From Natrinema caseinilyticum (GTDB lineage Archaea > Halobacteriota > Halobacteria > Halobacteriales > Natrialbaceae), in contig NZ_CP100445.1 in the NCBI RefSeq assembly GCF_024227435.1, forward strand, positions 1,485,369-1,549,368: a DNA stretch of 64,000 bases. The letters are read 5' to 3'. Both the position numbers and the translations under genes were made by a program. The notes beneath the pieces were generated by a model. The model did no database searches, was not told where the DNA came from, and saw only the letters and a list, made by a program, of their open reading frames with translations. Numbering within the stretch: position 1 is the first letter of the stretch; each line of letters starts with the position of its first letter. Below, piece after piece: positions 2,995-41,172 of the stretch.

Positions 2995-3110
2995 CCGTTT
3001 CGCGAGCCGCGTGCCGTGTGGCCCTCGGGTTCCCACCGACGAACGGCACGCACCCGAACCACCGATCGGAGGCGACCGCCGTCCGGAACCGGACAGTTCG
3101 GTCGGACGAG

Positions 3111-3121
3111 GACTTATTTTT
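3111..3121 (+). promoter_or_regulatory. TATA-like box of mgsA, leaderless start
   Basis: An A/T-only run (acttattttt) lies about 27 bp before the ATG at 3143, the distance expected for an archaeal promoter whose transcript begins at or beside the start codon. No Shine-Dalgarno sequence precedes the ATG. Confidence 0.55.
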
Positions 3122-3142
3122 CTCGAGGGACAGTGGCCAATT

Positions 3143-3511
3143 ATGACTCGTATCGCGTTGATCGCCCACGACGAGAAGAAGCCGGACCTCATCGAATTCG
3201 CACGGACGCACCAATCGCAACTGCGGGAATACGAACTGGTCGCAACCGGAACCACCGGAAAACGACTGCTCGAGGGAACGGACCTCGAGGTCGAACGCAA
3301 GGAGTCGGGCCCGCTCGGCGGGGATCTGATGATTGGCGCGGAGGTTGCGGCGGGAACCCTCGACGGAATCGTCTTCCTCCGTGATCCGCTCCGGGCCCAG
3401 CCCCACGAGCCCGATATCTCCGCGCTCCTTCGGATCTGTGACGTCCACGATACGGCGCTCGCGACGAATCTCGCCTCCGCGACGTTCCTCATCGAGGGGT
3501 TCGCCGAGTGA
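3143..3511 (+). CDS. mgsA: methylglyoxal synthase
   Basis: A 122-residue protein of typical family size. It converts dihydroxyacetone phosphate to methylglyoxal and phosphate in the cytoplasm, a bypass of lower glycolysis. The sequence starts [12 protein letters not shown] as in the family, has T-G-T-T-G for phosphate binding, the S-G-P-L-G-G-D segment carrying the catalytic aspartate, and an F-L-R-D-P stretch. The start is set by the conserved N terminus and by the TATA-like box about 27 bp upstream. It stands alone as a transcription unit. Confidence 0.95.
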
Positions 3512-3544: not shown

Positions 3545-3567
3545 GCCTCGGGGTCACGCCCCGTGGC
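3545..3567. repeat. PATE-like hairpin copy 1
   Basis: Stem gcctcgggg / ccccgtggc with loop tcacg, one mismatch in nine pairs. The 26 bases beginning at 3539 are identical to the 26 bases beginning at 47154. The hairpin resembles those at the ends of haloarchaeal IS200/IS605-IS1341 elements and PATE miniature elements; no transposase is nearby. Confidence 0.5.
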
Positions 3568-3669
3568 ATCCGCCTCGACAACCTGTGAACGCGAGCGACG
3601 ACCGGCGGACCGGCACACACCGGTCGAAGGGACCAGCCGTTTAATAGCGCGCGCTTCCCTTTCTGACGT

Positions 3670-33520: not shown

Positions 33521-34225
33521 CGGACGCTCCTCGACGGCGTCAGACCCCTCTTCGATAGCGGCTAGCAGGAGGTCCACGTACCGGTCGCGATCCGCGGCGG
33601 AGAACAGTTCGTGACCGCCGTCGTACAGGACGACGTGTTCCGCGGGGACCCGCTCGCCGATGGGACGGAGGCTAACGACCGGATCGCGAAGCGAGCAGAA
33701 GACGACGGCGTCGTGATCGATCGTCAGCAGCTCGCGCTGTGCGCGGCGAGTTTCCCGGATGAACGCCGGCGAGATCCACGACGGCGTCGTCTCTATCTGG
33801 TGGTCAGTCGCCCGCGGGCCGAGTGCATCTCTGTCCAGATCGCCGAGCGGAACCCACGGGAACGTGGTCGGAATCGTCGACACCGCGTCCAGAATCGGCC
33901 CGGGGTAGGCGTCGCTGTACCCCCACCACGGACTCAGGTACACGTGGTTGTCCGCACCGTCGAGGGCCTGCCCCACGAGGGAGCCGGCGCTGTGGCCCAG
34001 CAACTGGTACTCATCGAGGTCCCGGACGTACTCCGCGATCGGCTCGAGCCAGTCGGCTTTGAAGTCGTCGATGTTCGTCGGCAGTTCGAACGCGTGGACA
34101 CGGTAGTCGGCACCCGTCAGCTGTCCGATGAGCCAGCTGACGTTCTCGTGGGTCCAGCGGTTTCCCCAGCCCATGACGAACACGAGTTCCTCGTCGCCGT
34201 CCTCGTTGAAGATCCGGTGTCGCAT
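33506..34225 (-). CDS. alpha/beta fold hydrolase
   Basis: A 239-residue protein with the alpha/beta-hydrolase layout. An early V-M-G-W-G-N-R-W-T strand-turn forms the oxyanion-side loop, the nucleophile elbow is G-H-S-A-G-S near residue 79, an acid is expected in C-S-L-R-D-P, and the histidine is in D-G-G-H-E-L near the end. Cytoplasmic; substrate unknown (esterase or peptidase-like). A TATA-like stretch (ggataaaaacc) lies about 20-28 bp upstream of the ATG. Confidence 0.83.
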   Translation of the reverse strand: MRHRIFNEDGDEELVFVMGWGNRWTHENVSWLIGQLTGADYRVHAFELPTNIDDFKADWLEPIAEYVRDLDEYQLLGHSAGSLVGQALDGADNHVYLSPWWGYSDAYPGPILDAVSTIPTTFPWVPLGDLDRDALGPRATDHQIETTPSWISPAFIRETRRAQRELLTIDHDAVVFCSLRDPVVSLRPIGERVPAEHVVLYDGGHELFSAADRDRYVDLLLAAIEEGSDAVEERPTVPA

Positions 34226-34413: not shown

Positions 34414-35109
34414 ATGAGTGGAATCGACCGGACCGACGCGGTCGACCGTCTCGAGCAGCTCGTGGACACCGTCGAGGACGAGCGAATGCCGGTGCCCGTC
34501 CGCGAGGTGTGGGCCGTCGGTGACGTCGCGCTCGGGCTCGATCCGGTCGAGCGGCTGGACGTGTACCTCACCAAGGACGTTCTCGTACGCGACGATAGCG
34601 AATCGACCCCCTCGCGCACCGACGGTGACCGGGACGAAGCCGACCCGGACGCTCGCTTCCGCGAGTCTCACGGTGTTCGGGGCGTCGGCAAGTCCGTCAG
34701 GGCGGACTGGGCAGCCGAATATCCACACCACCTCAGGGCCAACGAAAACGGCCACGCCGCCCCCGAACGGTGTCTCGCGGCCCACCTCCTGGGGAACGAC
34801 GAACCGATCCATCTCGAAGTCTGTAACTCGTCGTTCGAAGACAACGTCACACAGCGGCTCCGCGGCGCGCGAGCGCGCGAGGACTACACCCAGTTGCTCG
34901 ACCCGCGCGGGGTCTGTCTCTGGGCGGACGGTATCAGAAGCGACGAGGCGTTTCGCAAGCTCCGGGAGAGCGAACTCGCCCTCCCGACGCTGTCTGCGGC
35001 CCTCGAGATGCTTGGGATGGACGACGACGAGGCCGAAACGGCGGCCCGGGAACTACACGCCTGGCGCGAGCGCCAGGACGGTGTGACGGTGCGCGGCGAC
35101 GTCGTCTAG
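34414..35109 (+). CDS. conserved haloarchaeal protein (DUF7095-like)
   Basis: A 231-residue acidic cytoplasmic protein. Conserved-looking segments are M-P-V-P-V-R-E-V-W-A-V-G-D-V-A-L-G-L-D-P near the N terminus, A-E-R-C-L-A-A-H-L-L in the middle and an L-P-T-L-S-A-A-L-E-M-L-G-M end. It looks like a haloarchaeal family of unknown function that I recall as DUF7095; the number should be checked. The start at 34414 fits that family better than an ATG nine codons upstream. Confidence 0.72.
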   Translation: MSGIDRTDAVDRLEQLVDTVEDERMPVPVREVWAVGDVALGLDPVERLDVYLTKDVLVRDDSESTPSRTDGDRDEADPDARFRESHGVRGVGKSVRADWAAEYPHHLRANENGHAAPERCLAAHLLGNDEPIHLEVCNSSFEDNVTQRLRGARAREDYTQLLDPRGVCLWADGIRSDEAFRKLRESELALPTLSAALEMLGMDDDEAETAARELHAWRERQDGVTVRGDVV

Positions 35110-37403: not shown

Positions 37404-37640
37404 TTATCGTCCACCTTCCCCGCGCGGATCTTCGACGAGCCGCCACAGTGCTGTCGGCTCGTGTACGTACTCGATCTTTTCGGCGGCGTAGAGCCGGTCG
37501 AGGCGCTTCGTGACGGTCGGTCTCGAGTAGCCCGTTTCATCAACGAGCATCCCCGTCGTTGCGTACCCGTGTTGTGCCAATACATCGAGAACGTCGTCCG
37601 TCGTCTCGTCGATCCGCAGTCCCATTTCTTGGTGTTCCAT
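37404..37640 (-). CDS. winged-helix repressor-like protein
   Basis: A 78-residue protein that is almost only a winged-helix domain. T-D-D-V-L-D-V-L forms helix 1, G-Y-A-T-T-G-M-L-V-D-E-T helix 2, S-R-P-T-V-T-K-R-L-D-R-L the recognition helix, and I-E-Y-V-H-E-P-T-A-L-W-R-L the wing. It is transcribed divergently from the operon beginning at 37826. The four 13-bp repeats between the two starts are the obvious candidate operator. Small size and setting fit a plasmid- or virus-type regulator. Confidence 0.8.
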   Translation of the reverse strand: MEHQEMGLRIDETTDDVLDVLAQHGYATTGMLVDETGYSRPTVTKRLDRLYAAEKIEYVHEPTALWRLVEDPRGEGGR

Positions 37641-37693: not shown

Positions 37694-37745
37694 GTACGAA
37701 TAGCATTTACGAATAGTTAAGATTAATAGGCTGGCGAATAGAGGT
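37694..37745. promoter_or_regulatory. four 13-bp direct repeats (iteron- or operator-like)
   Basis: Four consecutive 13-bp units starting at 37694, 37707, 37720 and 37733 share the core GAATAG or its variant TAATAG: gtacgaatagcat, ttacgaatagtta, agattaataggct, ggcgaatagaggt. The third unit also provides the best TATA-like box (ttaagattaata) for the rightward operon. The repeats lie between the divergent repressor gene and the operon. Confidence 0.7.
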
Positions 37746-37752
37746 GTAACTG

Positions 37753-37823
37753 AGCACGGGACGCCTCGGAAAATCTGAGGCCGGTGTTAGTGCACCGACC
37801 TCCCGTGCTGGCAGGAAACCAGC
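37753..37823 (+). promoter_or_regulatory. cloverleaf-like structured leader with a competing hairpin
   Basis: An outer 9-bp perfect stem agcacggga/tcccgtgct (37753-37761 with 37801-37809) encloses two hairpins: gcctcgga/tctgaggc with loop aaa (37763-37781) and cggtg/caccg with a 6-base loop (37782-37797 core). A further hairpin, gctgg/ccagc (37807-37811 with 37819-37823), uses bases of the outer stem, so the two folds exclude one another. The ATG follows three bases later at 37826. With the TATA-like box around 37717-37728, transcription should start very near 37750, at the foot of the outer stem. Confidence 0.65.
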
Positions 37824-37825
37824 GT

Positions 37826-38206
37826 ATGAGTGTACAACACCCAACAGATGAAACCGTTTCGACTGAACGTGCACAGACCGACGATGTCGTCCTCGAGCGC
37901 CGCTCGTGGAACTACGGCTACATCGGCGAAGACACCAACGGCCGACACCACCACGTCGACCGAAAACACGAACGCATCGTCGTCACGAACTCTCGAGCCG
38001 ACCGTGACGATTCCGGTGCCGTCCCAGTGTTCTCATTCCAGAACCCAATCCTGCACACCGAGGCCATCGAGCTCGGCCCACTGGGTGAAGGTGGCGAGGA
38101 CCTCCGACGATGGATTCAGTTCATCGACCAGGAGTGTGGCGGCTGGACCGACCGACCAGTCTCCGCAGCTGACCACGCACAGAACATCCTCGAGGAGGTG
38201 CGCTGA
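37826..38206 (+). CDS. mobile-element small protein, unknown
   Basis: A 126-residue acidic protein with no signal or membrane segment. The N-terminal 20 residues are polar. A strand-rich core contains W-N-Y-G-Y-I-G-E-D-T-N-G-R-H-H-H-V-D and V-F-S-F-Q-N-P-I, and a helical end contains R-R-W-I-Q-F-I-D-Q-E-C-G-G-W. I do not recognise the fold. The ATG at 37826 directly follows the structured leader; an in-frame ATG at 37784 lies inside the leader and is rejected. First gene of a tightly packed rightward operon. Confidence 0.7.
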   Translation: MSVQHPTDETVSTERAQTDDVVLERRSWNYGYIGEDTNGRHHHVDRKHERIVVTNSRADRDDSGAVPVFSFQNPILHTEAIELGPLGEGGEDLRRWIQFIDQECGGWTDRPVSAADHAQNILEEVR

Positions 38207-38208
38207 GC

Positions 38209-38388
38209 ATGTCAGCCGCCAGAGACCGCCACCGGAGCCTCCGCAGCGAGCAACTCGAGCACAAAGCTGCACGCCAAACCCACCTCTTAGCAGACGCGAA
38301 AGCAGTCGCCGATCCAGAGACAAACGATTCCACTCCCTCATTCAACGAGAACAGCACTGCTGAATCGAACCCGGAGGTCGAAGCATGA
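38209..38388 (+). CDS. 59-residue operon protein, unknown
   Basis: Starts two bases after the previous stop codon and overlaps the next ATG by four bases. The N-terminal two-thirds is basic and helical (H-R-S-L-R-S-E-Q-L-E-H-K-A-A-R-Q), the rest polar and acidic. The spacing makes it a credible translated gene despite its size. No family is recognised. Confidence 0.65.
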   Translation: MSAARDRHRSLRSEQLEHKAARQTHLLADAKAVADPETNDSTPSFNENSTAESNPEVEA

Positions 38389-38573
38389 CGTCAGGACCAG
38401 AGCATCCGATCCGCGTCCGTCTCGAGGAGGTCCTCGCAGACGTGTGGATGCTCGAGGGGGAGATAATCGAGCCGCTGTCGCTCGAGCCGGCGATGAAGAA
38501 TATCGAGGAGACGATCGAGGTGTACAAGCGCCTCGAAGCTGACGACTCCTATTCTACGGAGGACGACCAATGA
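38385..38573 (+). CDS. 62-residue acidic operon protein, unknown
   Basis: Four-base overlaps join it to the gene before (38385-38388) and after (38570-38573). The sequence is strongly acidic and mostly helical, with E-E-V-L-A-D-V-W-M-L-E-G-E-I-I-E-P-L in the middle. It resembles small proteins found in plasmid and virus modules of haloarchaea; no function can be given. Confidence 0.68.
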   Translation: MTSGPEHPIRVRLEEVLADVWMLEGEIIEPLSLEPAMKNIEETIEVYKRLEADDSYSTEDDQ

Positions 38574-38967
38574 CGGACTCCTCCGGCTGGCTGGCGTCGG
38601 TCTGTGACGATCCCGACCGGCGGCCGACCGACCATCTACAGCAGACGTCGACCGAGACCCACCATCAGTATCTCATAGAGCAACAGTTCGAGGGCGCCCG
38701 CATCGCTGCAGGCGAGACCGTCCCCTGCGACGACTGCGGTGACTGCCTCTACGAAGGTCGTCCGGTAAGCGCTCGAGCCTGCCGGTACTCCGACGAGCCC
38801 ACCTACACGATCGCGGCCGTCTACTGTGCCGGCTGCGCTCCCACTGATCTAACGGAGACGGCACCAGGTCGAGACGACGTCCTCCTCGAGGCCGACTCGG
38901 GCTCGCGATGGCCAGGCAGACACACTGGACGATCCTCGTCGAGCCGACGGTCGTGGCCACCGCCTGA
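38570..38967 (+). pseudogene. zinc-binding operon protein, probable frameshift near its end
   Basis: The frame opens with a four-base overlap and reads through two cysteine pairs, C-D-D-C-G-D-C near residue 53 and C-A-G-C near residue 87, suggesting a zinc finger. After D-D-V-L-L-E-A (about 38890) the open frame becomes Ser/Arg/Pro-rich and runs on to 39106. The alternative frame reads L-A-M-A-R-Q-T-H-W-T-I-L-V-E-P-T-V-V-A and stops at 38967, which looks like the true C terminus. A single-base indel near 38900 would explain this. If real, the encoded product has a scrambled tail of about 70 residues. Confidence 0.6.
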
Positions 38968-39185
38968 GCACCACTCTCTCCTCTCGCATCGCCTCCCGGA
39001 ATGGTGCTCCCTTCACGAACGGCCAGCCACCGGTGGCAACGCCGGCGGCAATCGCCGTGCGCTCGAGACGGACAGTCCACCCGTCACGATAGCGGGAGCG
39101 CTGTAGCTTCTGGTTGGCCGCCGAACTCGAGCTCCGTTCTGGCGACCAATCCCCACGTCTTCCACTTCCCAATTCCCGATTCCCG

Positions 39186-40034
39186 ATGACACCACCCAGT
39201 TCCAACAGCGACGCATCGATTCACGACCAACTTGCACAGTTCGAGGCTCGTATCGACGATCTCGAAAATGAGAACGATGCCCTTCGAGAGACCGTCTCCC
39301 ACCAGACTGACCAGATCGACGCACAGAACGAACAGATCGACGCTCTCGAGGAAGAGAACAGTCGCCTGGAGACAGTCGCACAGGCAGCCCTGAAGAAAGC
39401 AGGTGCGAACAAAGACCGCATTGCAGAACTCCAGACACGGGAACTCGAGAAAGGCGCGCATTTCCTCGCCGATCACGTCGACCCCGACTCGCTCGTGGAC
39501 CGTGTCGAGCGTCTCGAGCGATTCTCCAAGGAGGACGATACCTACATGCGGATCCCCAACTCGGATGATCCACTCGACCGGGGTGGATCGGTCGCGCTCG
39601 CCCACGGCGACCTCCTGCCGATCCAGCAACTGGCACAGATGGACGACGATATGCTTCGCTCGTCGACGAACTCACTCCCAGCTCGATTAGCCGCGAAACT
39701 CTGGCGGGCACGGACTGATCCCAGTGTCGGCGATAATCCCTGGCAGAAGGGGTGCAAGAGTGTCTGTGAATACGTGAAAGCGGGCGAGATGAAACACTGG
39801 ATCCGACGGCAAGAGAGCGGTGTCAGCGACGCCGACGCGAAGAAACTCGTCTCGAGGACGATCGACGCGCTGCTCGAATTGTCGAAGAACCGGCTGGCCA
39901 TTCGAAGGCAAACCGAACGAAAGAACGGACTGCCATACACCGAGCGACGAGTACTGTTGAAGACGGATGCTTCGATACCCGGTGAGACCACTGAAACGAT
40001 GGTCTCAACAGAGACGCCTGGTGTCCACGGATAG
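39186..40034 (+). CDS. coiled-coil protein of plasmid/virus type
   Basis: A 282-residue protein. Residues 10-75 form a strong coiled coil with heptad-like I-D-D-L-E-N-E-N-D-A-L-R-E-T. The C-terminal part (about 130-245) is helical with a probable helix-turn-helix in the V-S-D-A-D-A-K-K-L-V-S-R-T-I-D region. Proteins of this design are common beside replication genes on haloarchaeal plasmids and may act in DNA binding or partition; that is inference. It follows the small-gene operon by about 80-220 bp on the same strand and ends the module. Confidence 0.7.
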   Translation: MTPPSSNSDASIHDQLAQFEARIDDLENENDALRETVSHQTDQIDAQNEQIDALEEENSRLETVAQAALKKAGANKDRIAELQTRELEKGAHFLADHVDPDSLVDRVERLERFSKEDDTYMRIPNSDDPLDRGGSVALAHGDLLPIQQLAQMDDDMLRSSTNSLPARLAAKLWRARTDPSVGDNPWQKGCKSVCEYVKAGEMKHWIRRQESGVSDADAKKLVSRTIDALLELSKNRLAIRRQTERKNGLPYTERRVLLKTDASIPGETTETMVSTETPGVHG

Positions 40035-40249: not shown

Positions 40250-41172
40250 ATGAACGCTGTCGTCCTCGCGGGTGGGTTTGCTACGCGAATGTGGCCGCTG
40301 ACGAAGGAGTTGCCGAAGATGTTCCTTCCAATTGGCGAGTCGACCGTCATCGATCGTATCTTCACGGAACTCGAGGCAGACGATCGGATCGACGACGTCT
40401 ACGTCAGTACAAACGAGCGGTTCGCCCCCGACTTCGAGGCGCACCTCGCCGACAGCGAGTTCGACAAGCCGAGTCTCTCGATCGAGGAGACAGTCGACGA
40501 AGACGAAAAATTCGGCGTCGTCGGTGCGCTCGCACAGCTCGTCGACCGAGAGGGAATCGACGACGATCTGCTCGTCATCGCCGGCGATAACTTGATCAGC
40601 TTCGACGTCTCGGAGTTCATCGATACCTTCGAGGAGCGCGACGCTCCGACGCTCGCCGCCTACGACGTCGGCTCACGCGAAAAGGCGAAATCCTACGGCC
40701 TCGTCGAACTCGAGGGTGACCGCGTCGTCGACTTCCAGGAGAAACCCGACGATCCCAAGAGCACGCTCGTCTCGATCGCCTGCTATGCCTTCCCGCAGGG
40801 TTCGTCCAGTGGCTGCAGGACCGCGAACCGACCTACGCCTATACGTTCGAAGGTGCGTGGTTCGACATCGGAACGCCGGCGAGTTACCTCGATGCCGTCG
40901 CCTGGCATCTAGACGGTGAGTCACACATTGGGGATGGTGTAACGCTCGAGAACACCTCGGTTGGTAAGAACGTCCACGTGATGAACGGCGCGACGCTCGT
41001 TGATGCGTCGGTTGCGGATATGGTTGTCTTTCCTGGTGTGACACTCGAAGGCGCGGACCTAGAGCGGACGATCGTCGGCGAGGACACGCAACTCGACGAC
41101 GACTCGCTCGACGGAGTACTACTCGGGCCAGAACTCGAGATCACGACCAGTTCTGCGTTGTCATCGGACTAA
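40250..41172 (+). pseudogene. sugar nucleotidyltransferase (glucose-1-phosphate thymidylyltransferase-like), internal deletion
   Basis: The first 185 residues are a clear nucleotidyltransferase: M-N-A-V-V-L-A-G-G-F-A-T-R-M-W-P-L-T-K and the I-A-G-D-N-L metal motif. After A-F-P-Q (about 40800) the frame is lost. Another frame resumes at F-V-Q-W-L-Q-D-R-E-P-T-Y-A-Y and continues through F-E-G-A-W-F-D-I-G-T-P and a left-handed beta-helix tail to the stop at 41170-41172. Relatives have about 20-30 residues between these parts, so a short deletion that breaks the frame has occurred. The intact enzyme would make NDP-sugars for S-layer glycosylation or exopolysaccharide. Confidence 0.8.

Follow-up and report, generated by a model that had tools for sequence, protein, structure and literature searches.

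A covarying leader RNA with two alternative folds before the early genes of haloarchaeal mobile elements: a candidate translational switch

Introduction

Haloarchaea are known for leaderless messages. The DNA analyzed here (the window, a 64,000-nt stretch of the Natrinema caseinilyticum genome) raises the question of why an operon in such an organism should be preceded by a structured leader, and what the leader might do so close to the start codon. A preliminary description, made from the letters alone, had proposed a two-state RNA; we compared the leader with its homologues in haloarchaeal genomes, plasmids and viruses. No RNA or expression data were used.

Results

The leader in the window

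The promoter and the leader consist of the following elements:

37713-37728, plus strand: promoter, an A-rich BRE region and the TATA-like TTAATA at 37723-37728 (sequence; aligned logo of 86 copies)
37752-37825, plus strand: structured leader RNA (5′ UTR), inferred start at 37752-37753 (fold z −4.6; 77.4 bits with model R2, see below)
37753-37761, plus strand: 5′ arm of P1, at the RNA 5′ end (folding, covariation)
37763-37781, plus strand: P2 hairpin with an A-rich loop, arms 37763-37770 and 37774-37781 (folding, conservation, covariation)
37782-37797, plus strand: P3 hairpin, CGGUG-UUAGUG-CACCG, arms 37782-37787 and 37792-37797 (conservation, covariation)
37798-37800, plus strand: conserved J3/1 junction, ACC (A in 74%, C in 65% and C in 86% of copies)
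37801-37809, plus strand: 3′ arm of P1, of which 37807-37809 is also used by P4 (folding, comparison of copies)
37807-37823, plus strand: alternative hairpin P4, GCUGG-CAGGAAA-CCAGC, adjoining the start codon, arms 37807-37811 and 37819-37823 (sequence, comparison of copies, covariation)

P1 is a perfect 9-bp helix, and the 3′ end of P4 lies 2 bases before the ATG at 37826. The 71-nt leader had a minimum free energy of −37.0 kcal/mol, against −22.6 ± 3.1 kcal/mol for 200 dinucleotide shuffles, none of which was as stable (z = −4.6). The preliminary description had claimed an outer stem, two hairpins inside it and a third hairpin overlapping it, and every one of these pairings was found where it had been placed. 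P1 and P4 share 3 nt (37807-37809), or 5 nt if two wobble pairs lengthen P4 to 37825, and in the window the two helices are mutually exclusive only at the foot of P1. P4 of the window was borderline by itself (p ~0.07 against its own shuffles), so that its reality has to be decided by the homologues.

In the aligned logo of the 86 copies the BRE (AA) is located at −37/−36 and the TATA at −32 to −27 relative to the model start. From the position of TTAATA a transcription start at about 37752-37753 can be deduced for the window; the spacing puts the start within ~3 nt of the P1 foot, so that the RNA 5′ end would be the very strand that rivals P4. The sole experimental start that bears on the family here, that of the early-lytic transcript T4 of phiH, was mapped at 34556, at the foot of a P1-like stem. 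Both lines agree with a start at the foot of the outer stem, as had been proposed, and place it not downstream of 37761, a result that would have refuted the proposal. In the window itself the start remains an inference from promoter spacing and phiH.

The leader is one of many copies in haloarchaeal mobile elements

A second copy, with 81% identity, was present in the same genome, and further copies were detected in plasmid and virus records, some of them upstream of quite different genes. Two covariance models were built, R1 from five copies and R2 from 87 copies. R1 matched 112 of 391 haloarchaeal genomes, and R2 at E up to 1e-3 matched 159 of the 391, in 59 of 86 genera. With laxer filters matches were found in 27 of the 29 genomes of the window's genus, with up to 10 copies per genome and 7 in the window's own. 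Of 393 genomes drawn phylum-wide, 29 had matches, all of them haloarchaea, and none outside did. The E-values of both models are rough. The window scored 92.8 bits with R1 and 77.4 bits with R2; since both models were built including it, independent support comes from the second copy and from the covariation described below. It fits the criteria of the family, namely P1-P2-P3, P4 beside the AUG and the promoter spacing.

A tRNA, a tRNA-like structure or a known Rfam family was rejected for lack of a match: the Rfam 15 scan of the window at the gathering threshold returned only tRNA-Tyr and nothing at the leader, five copies chosen for diversity and searched against Rfam 15 as far as E 5 gave chance matches only, and ARAGORN found no tRNA cloverleaf at the leader or in 94 copies. 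A loose pattern (GGCCGGTG..CACCGACC) run over genome and viral contigs mostly gave chance matches in bacteria, whereas with tighter patterns and the covariance model together some nine or ten viral contigs remained as true matches. No description of this leader family was found in Rfam or in the searched literature, which did not include the main papers on SNJ2 regulation and the phiH papers of the 1990s. The leader belongs to a large, apparently undescribed family of cis-acting RNAs carried by haloarchaeal mobile elements, and the former view of it as a rarity in a mostly leaderless haloarchaeon had to be abandoned.

Selection acts on both folds of the RNA

Across 85 non-redundant copies, 95.8% of the cells of P1-P3 were paired, with 234 cells compensated on both sides where shuffles gave 52 ± 12, and the signal collapsed in every version in which the arms were slid by 1-3 columns. 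This alignment was fitted to the structure and is hence biased toward it. For P4 no such bias arises, since neither model paired it: changes on both sides were seen in 69 cells, against 28.7 ± 4.3 in shuffles, with a covariation of 0.297 against 0.138. The P1 foot was paired in 97.8% of the cells and covaried together with the P4 arm. Compensatory changes in homologues, whose absence was to have counted against the leader, are thus abundant in P1-P3 and in P4.

In an alignment-free comparison arms were exchanged between copies; pairing of the middle strand reached z 10.3 with the RNA 5′ end and z 18.0 with the pre-AUG stretch, and none of 5000 permutations of cognate against exchanged arms reached the observed value. 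Matched triples of 5′ end, middle and pre-AUG strands include GAAGC-GCUUC-GAAGC, AGCA-UGCU-AGCA, GACA-UGUC-GACA and UAGCA-UGCUA-UAGCA. Shared descent may inflate figures of this kind, but the triples carry weight.

The same pairs bear on the possibility that the element works as DNA, i.e., as an operator or a hairpin origin recognized in double- or single-stranded form. Divergent repressor genes do adjoin the leader, and hairpin origins are used by archaeal plasmids (PMC13107129). However, P1-P3 contained 97 G-U against 20 A-C oppositions, and this excess shows that selection acts on the plus-strand RNA; the fixed spacing to the promoter and to the AUG is also at odds with a DNA element. This explanation is disfavoured, and we consider it hardly tenable.

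The P3 stem is nearly invariant (GC in 84/85, UA in 77/85 and GC in 85/85 copies), its consensus being GGUG-YUNN(A)(G)-CACC, and the ACC junction is nearly invariant with it. The P2 loop is A-rich, with the family consensus A(A/G)AA. P3 is likely the recognition core.

P4 abuts the start codon and is balanced against P1

The leaders are 59-93 nt long (median 72). P4 ends flush with the ATG in 62 of 86 non-redundant copies and 1 nt before it in 18 (80/86 together), gaps of 2-3 nt being seen in a few copies; the 62 flush copies include 13 whose P4 can be extended through all three bases of the AUG. In copies L053 and L055 the sole nearby AUG lies in the P4 loop, and in L086 it lies in a P4 arm; direct sequestration of the start codon by P4 would follow in these three.

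The P1 foot and P4 overlap by at least 3 nt in 67 of 74 copies. The median difference in free energy between the P1 state and the P4 state was only −0.1 kcal/mol (IQR −1.6 to 1.6), with totals of about −35 kcal/mol (ViennaRNA). In the window the P1 state is favoured by about 4 kcal/mol, so reaching P4 would need a trigger or cotranscriptional folding. These energies hold for 37 °C and 1 M NaCl, unlike the salt of haloarchaea. The strengths of the two helices correlated across copies (r 0.59, with none of 5000 permutations as high), a correlation partly built in by the shared bases.

The leader might also be constitutive, with P1-P3 capping the 5′ end against decay and P4 presenting the start codon, a shortened P1 and P4 coexisting without any switching. 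Hairpins at the 5′ end commonly stabilize mRNAs, and the shared segment is only 3-5 nt, so that P1 could keep its upper part while P4 forms, which is in itself a counterpoint to a switch. A mere cap, however, gives no reason for P3 and the junction to be nearly invariant, nor would it account for a P1 foot so consistently paired and covarying with the P4 arm. We regard a constitutive leader as improbable.

The leader does not meet the criterion of a transcription attenuator, with the AUG directly after P4 (56/74 and 62/86 copies) and no run of U. An RNA thermometer would have its start site paired and melting with temperature; P4 abuts the AUG, but the core is strongly conserved, which a thermometer does not need. 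Shine-Dalgarno-like 4-mers were located at the P4 loop ± 2 nt in 45 of 86 copies, against 17.8 ± 3.6 expected. Sequestration of a Shine-Dalgarno sequence was not adopted, because there are other reasons for GA-rich loops and because Haloferax was reported not to use such sequences at 5′ UTRs (PMC3986360). Two features of a riboswitch are present: a conserved structured domain (P1-P3) and, by computation only, a mutually exclusive platform, as judged from the covariation of P4, the shared strand and the energy balance; direct binding of a small ligand and regulation of the gene in cis would be the others.

Genes around the leader

The features next to the leader are:

37404-37640, minus strand: divergent winged-helix (MarR_2) gene, 78 aa (Pfam MarR_2, E 2.6e-6, above the cut-off)
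37826-38206, plus strand: first gene of the operon, 126 aa, of no known family (ORF, Pfam search, structure prediction)
37850-37862, plus strand: conserved block within the first gene, at +25 to +37 counted from its ATG, GAAACCGTTTCGA in the window, without the final G (aligned logo, codon analysis)
38209-40034, plus strand: small ORFs (38209-38388, 38385-38573, 38570-39106) and a coiled-coil ORF (39114-40034) (ORF list)

The product of the divergent gene is likely a repressor of the leader promoter, although this function is putative; small winged-helix genes are also divergent at some other copies, among them those of HJTV-4, pHLAC01 and BJ1. In general, the leader precedes the opening gene of an operon in a provirus, virus or plasmid, and a divergent repressor gene often adjoins it. 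The divergent neighbours encode MarR, other winged-helix and DnaJ proteins, and most are without a family. The DnaJ domain was found in five of the divergent neighbours (divergent ORFs of 75 copies), an unexpected recurring partner.

A stretch closely related to 38209-40034 occurs in Natrinema plasmids; the ORF at 39114-40034 has a coiled coil only, with no firm family. What had been taken for a packed operon of unknown small proteins is indeed an operon, now identified as the first operon of a mobile element, whose downstream genes vary from copy to copy: the families include Cdc6/Orc ATPases, ParA, HNH and winged-helix proteins. These are not metabolic, so gene context suggested no ligand; that the downstream genes are too varied to name one is a further counterpoint to a switch. 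No direct repeats bounding the element were found. Further along in the window, a nucleotidyltransferase gene (40250-41172) appears interrupted, ORF 40250-40912 seeming to continue in another frame at 40978-41172. In the plasmid of Natrinema sp. SYSU A 869 (3001-3375) a homologue of the window's first gene has a TAG in frame close to its start and is annotated only from a point downstream. The first ORF is often a peptide of 19-40 aa overlapping the next gene (L004, L042, L079-L083, L057-L061), as if coupling translation to the operon.

Unrelated first genes begin alike. The block at +25 to +37, with the consensus S AAAA NNN U N C S G, recurs at the same place in 85 copies. At codon 11 the last base is T in 68% of the copies, against 5-49% (mostly <20%) at other codons, while its amino acid varies widely; the alike starts can thus be attributed to a constraint at the RNA level. 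Residues 1-27 of the window's first gene product are predicted to be disordered in a low-confidence model (pLDDT 61), a prediction that fits a stretch constrained for RNA rather than for a fold. No covariation was found between the leader and the block, and a pairing of the two was rejected. Similar N-termini on unrelated genes would also be expected if promoter, leader and first codons formed a 5′ cassette that recombines onto new genes, its conservation reflecting recent exchange and not function. But the arms diverge while their pairing is kept, and codon 11 encodes many different amino acids despite its final T in 68% of the copies, which speaks against exchange. Already disfavoured by the compensatory changes, this explanation seems to us very improbable.

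Copies in named viruses and the early-lytic leaders of phiH

The leader was found in HJTV-4 (37.6 bits), twice in BJ1 (31.0 and 20.8 bits) and in phiCh1, where it lies between the repressor and the next gene (34057-34127; 27.0 bits, E 6e-4); HRPV-3 had no convincing copy. The leader of the SNJ2 integrase operon, upstream of ORF3 and adjoining the divergent regulator ORF4, is a copy of diverged sequence (R2 23.7 bits, E 7e-4). In BJ1 (AM419438, 3510-3600) the annotated GTG start of ORF7 at 3547 falls inside the leader; its true start is likely the ATG at 3598, flush with P4 (GCUGUC...GACAGC).

The T4 leader of phiH1 resembles the family in that it starts at the foot of a long P1, followed by P2, P3 (CCGUG-CUGGUAU-CACGG) and a three-way junction, in that it adjoins the divergent repressor repR, and in that the coding block is kept at +33, +36 and +37. 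It differs in its P1 of about 18 bp, its extra hairpins and its length of ~174 nt. A targeted search limited to 401 bases gave it only 15.9 bits, and it was absent from the whole-record list, so that the membership of phiH1 rests on phiCh1 and on position. The searched literature, which excludes the 1990s phiH papers, offered no structural description of the T4 leader. The window meets the criteria of an early-lytic leader of the phiH/phiCh1 type (start at the P1 foot, divergent repressor, P1-P2-P3), its start being inferred only. The T1 leader of phiH1 (38582-38733) is likewise a structured early-lytic leader, of 151 nt, whose 5′ GAGCAGG pairs with CCUGCUC and in which GCUC is able to pair with a GAGC directly before the AUG; unlike the family, it has no such three-way junction by the model, and it is regulated by antisense RNA in the literature. 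The T1 leader of phiCh1 (about 38010-38176) also carries GAGC at the 5′ end, GCUC in the middle and GAGC before the AUG, with GAGCAAGC/GCUUGCUC where phiH has GAGCAGG/CCUGCUC.

The phiH transcripts support the most serious rival to a switch, namely processing of the leader. In this view a nuclease, to which an antisense RNA or a bound protein might show the way, would cut at the base of P4 and leave a leaderless mRNA, and the exchange between P1 and P4 would gate the cut site. A cut at the end of P4, 0-1 nt before the AUG, would yield just such an mRNA, and leaderless mRNAs are more efficiently translated (PMC8241225). Moreover, in phiH a start T5 is annotated at 34722, 8 nt upstream of its ORF; T4′ is a product of cleavage, the T1 leader is covered by the antisense RNA T(ant), and antisense-mediated processing was reported by Stolt and Zillig 1993 (cited in PMC6210493). 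On the other hand, processing alone does not explain the matched strengths of P1 and P4, the gaps of 2-3 nt in a few copies do not suit it, and data on antisense promoters are lacking in the family. Hence, we hold processing to be unlikely, but not to be dismissed.

Discussion

The reading that we prefer, and think probable without regarding it as settled, is that the leader acts as a bistable switch governing how the early genes in a haloarchaeal mobile element are translated. Neither the trigger nor the switching has been demonstrated. What the comparison establishes concerns the structure, its covariation, the strand, the position relative to promoter and AUG, the energy balance and the distribution; which state is ON, whether switching occurs and what triggers it are inferred. 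Switching and regulation, as already put forward in the preliminary description, are backed by form and energy balance, and by no experiment.

According to the switch model, transcription would begin at the P1 foot. In state A the RNA 5′ end and the middle strand would form P1, the helix that completes a three-way junction together with P2 and P3, so that the pre-AUG stretch would be single-stranded and ribosomes would be able to start. In state B the middle strand would instead pair with the bases directly before the AUG to form P4, and a stem against the start codon, in some copies including the AUG itself, would hinder initiation. The sensing part, made up of P3 with its nearly constant stem, the A-rich loop of P2 and the ACC junction, would shift the balance. 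A common core in unrelated mobile elements points to a common partner, most likely of the host; the signal might be a protein, an RNA, a metabolite or an ion common to haloarchaeal hosts.

Synthetic theophylline switches that mask the AUG by alternative pairing, as proposed here, control translation in Haloferax (PMC8241225); in contrast to them, the haloarchaeal leader is natural, widespread and without a known ligand. The only verified natural archaeal riboswitch named there is the fluoride riboswitch of Thermococcus (PMC8241225), and no verified natural haloarchaeal riboswitch was found in the searched literature. A broader proposal, which we offer tentatively and would not yet call probable, is that the family represents a natural riboswitch-like class of sensors of haloarchaea, in which one leader, present in unrelated mobile elements, reads a host-wide signal via the invariant P3, and displacement by the RNA 5′ end opens or closes the start codon of early, excision or replication genes. 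It would act as a post-transcriptional induction checkpoint beside the repressor, both binding and cis regulation being inferred.

The carriers span tailed viruses, a pleolipovirus, plasmids and integrated elements. The leader makes post-transcriptional control of the early-lytic transcripts of phiH and its kin testable, some viral genes need to have their start codons annotated anew, and alike N-termini in unrelated proteins may reflect a constraint on the RNA and not protein homology. If the switch reading is true, a covarying two-state leader across 59 genera would represent a major post-transcriptional control of archaeal mobile genes.
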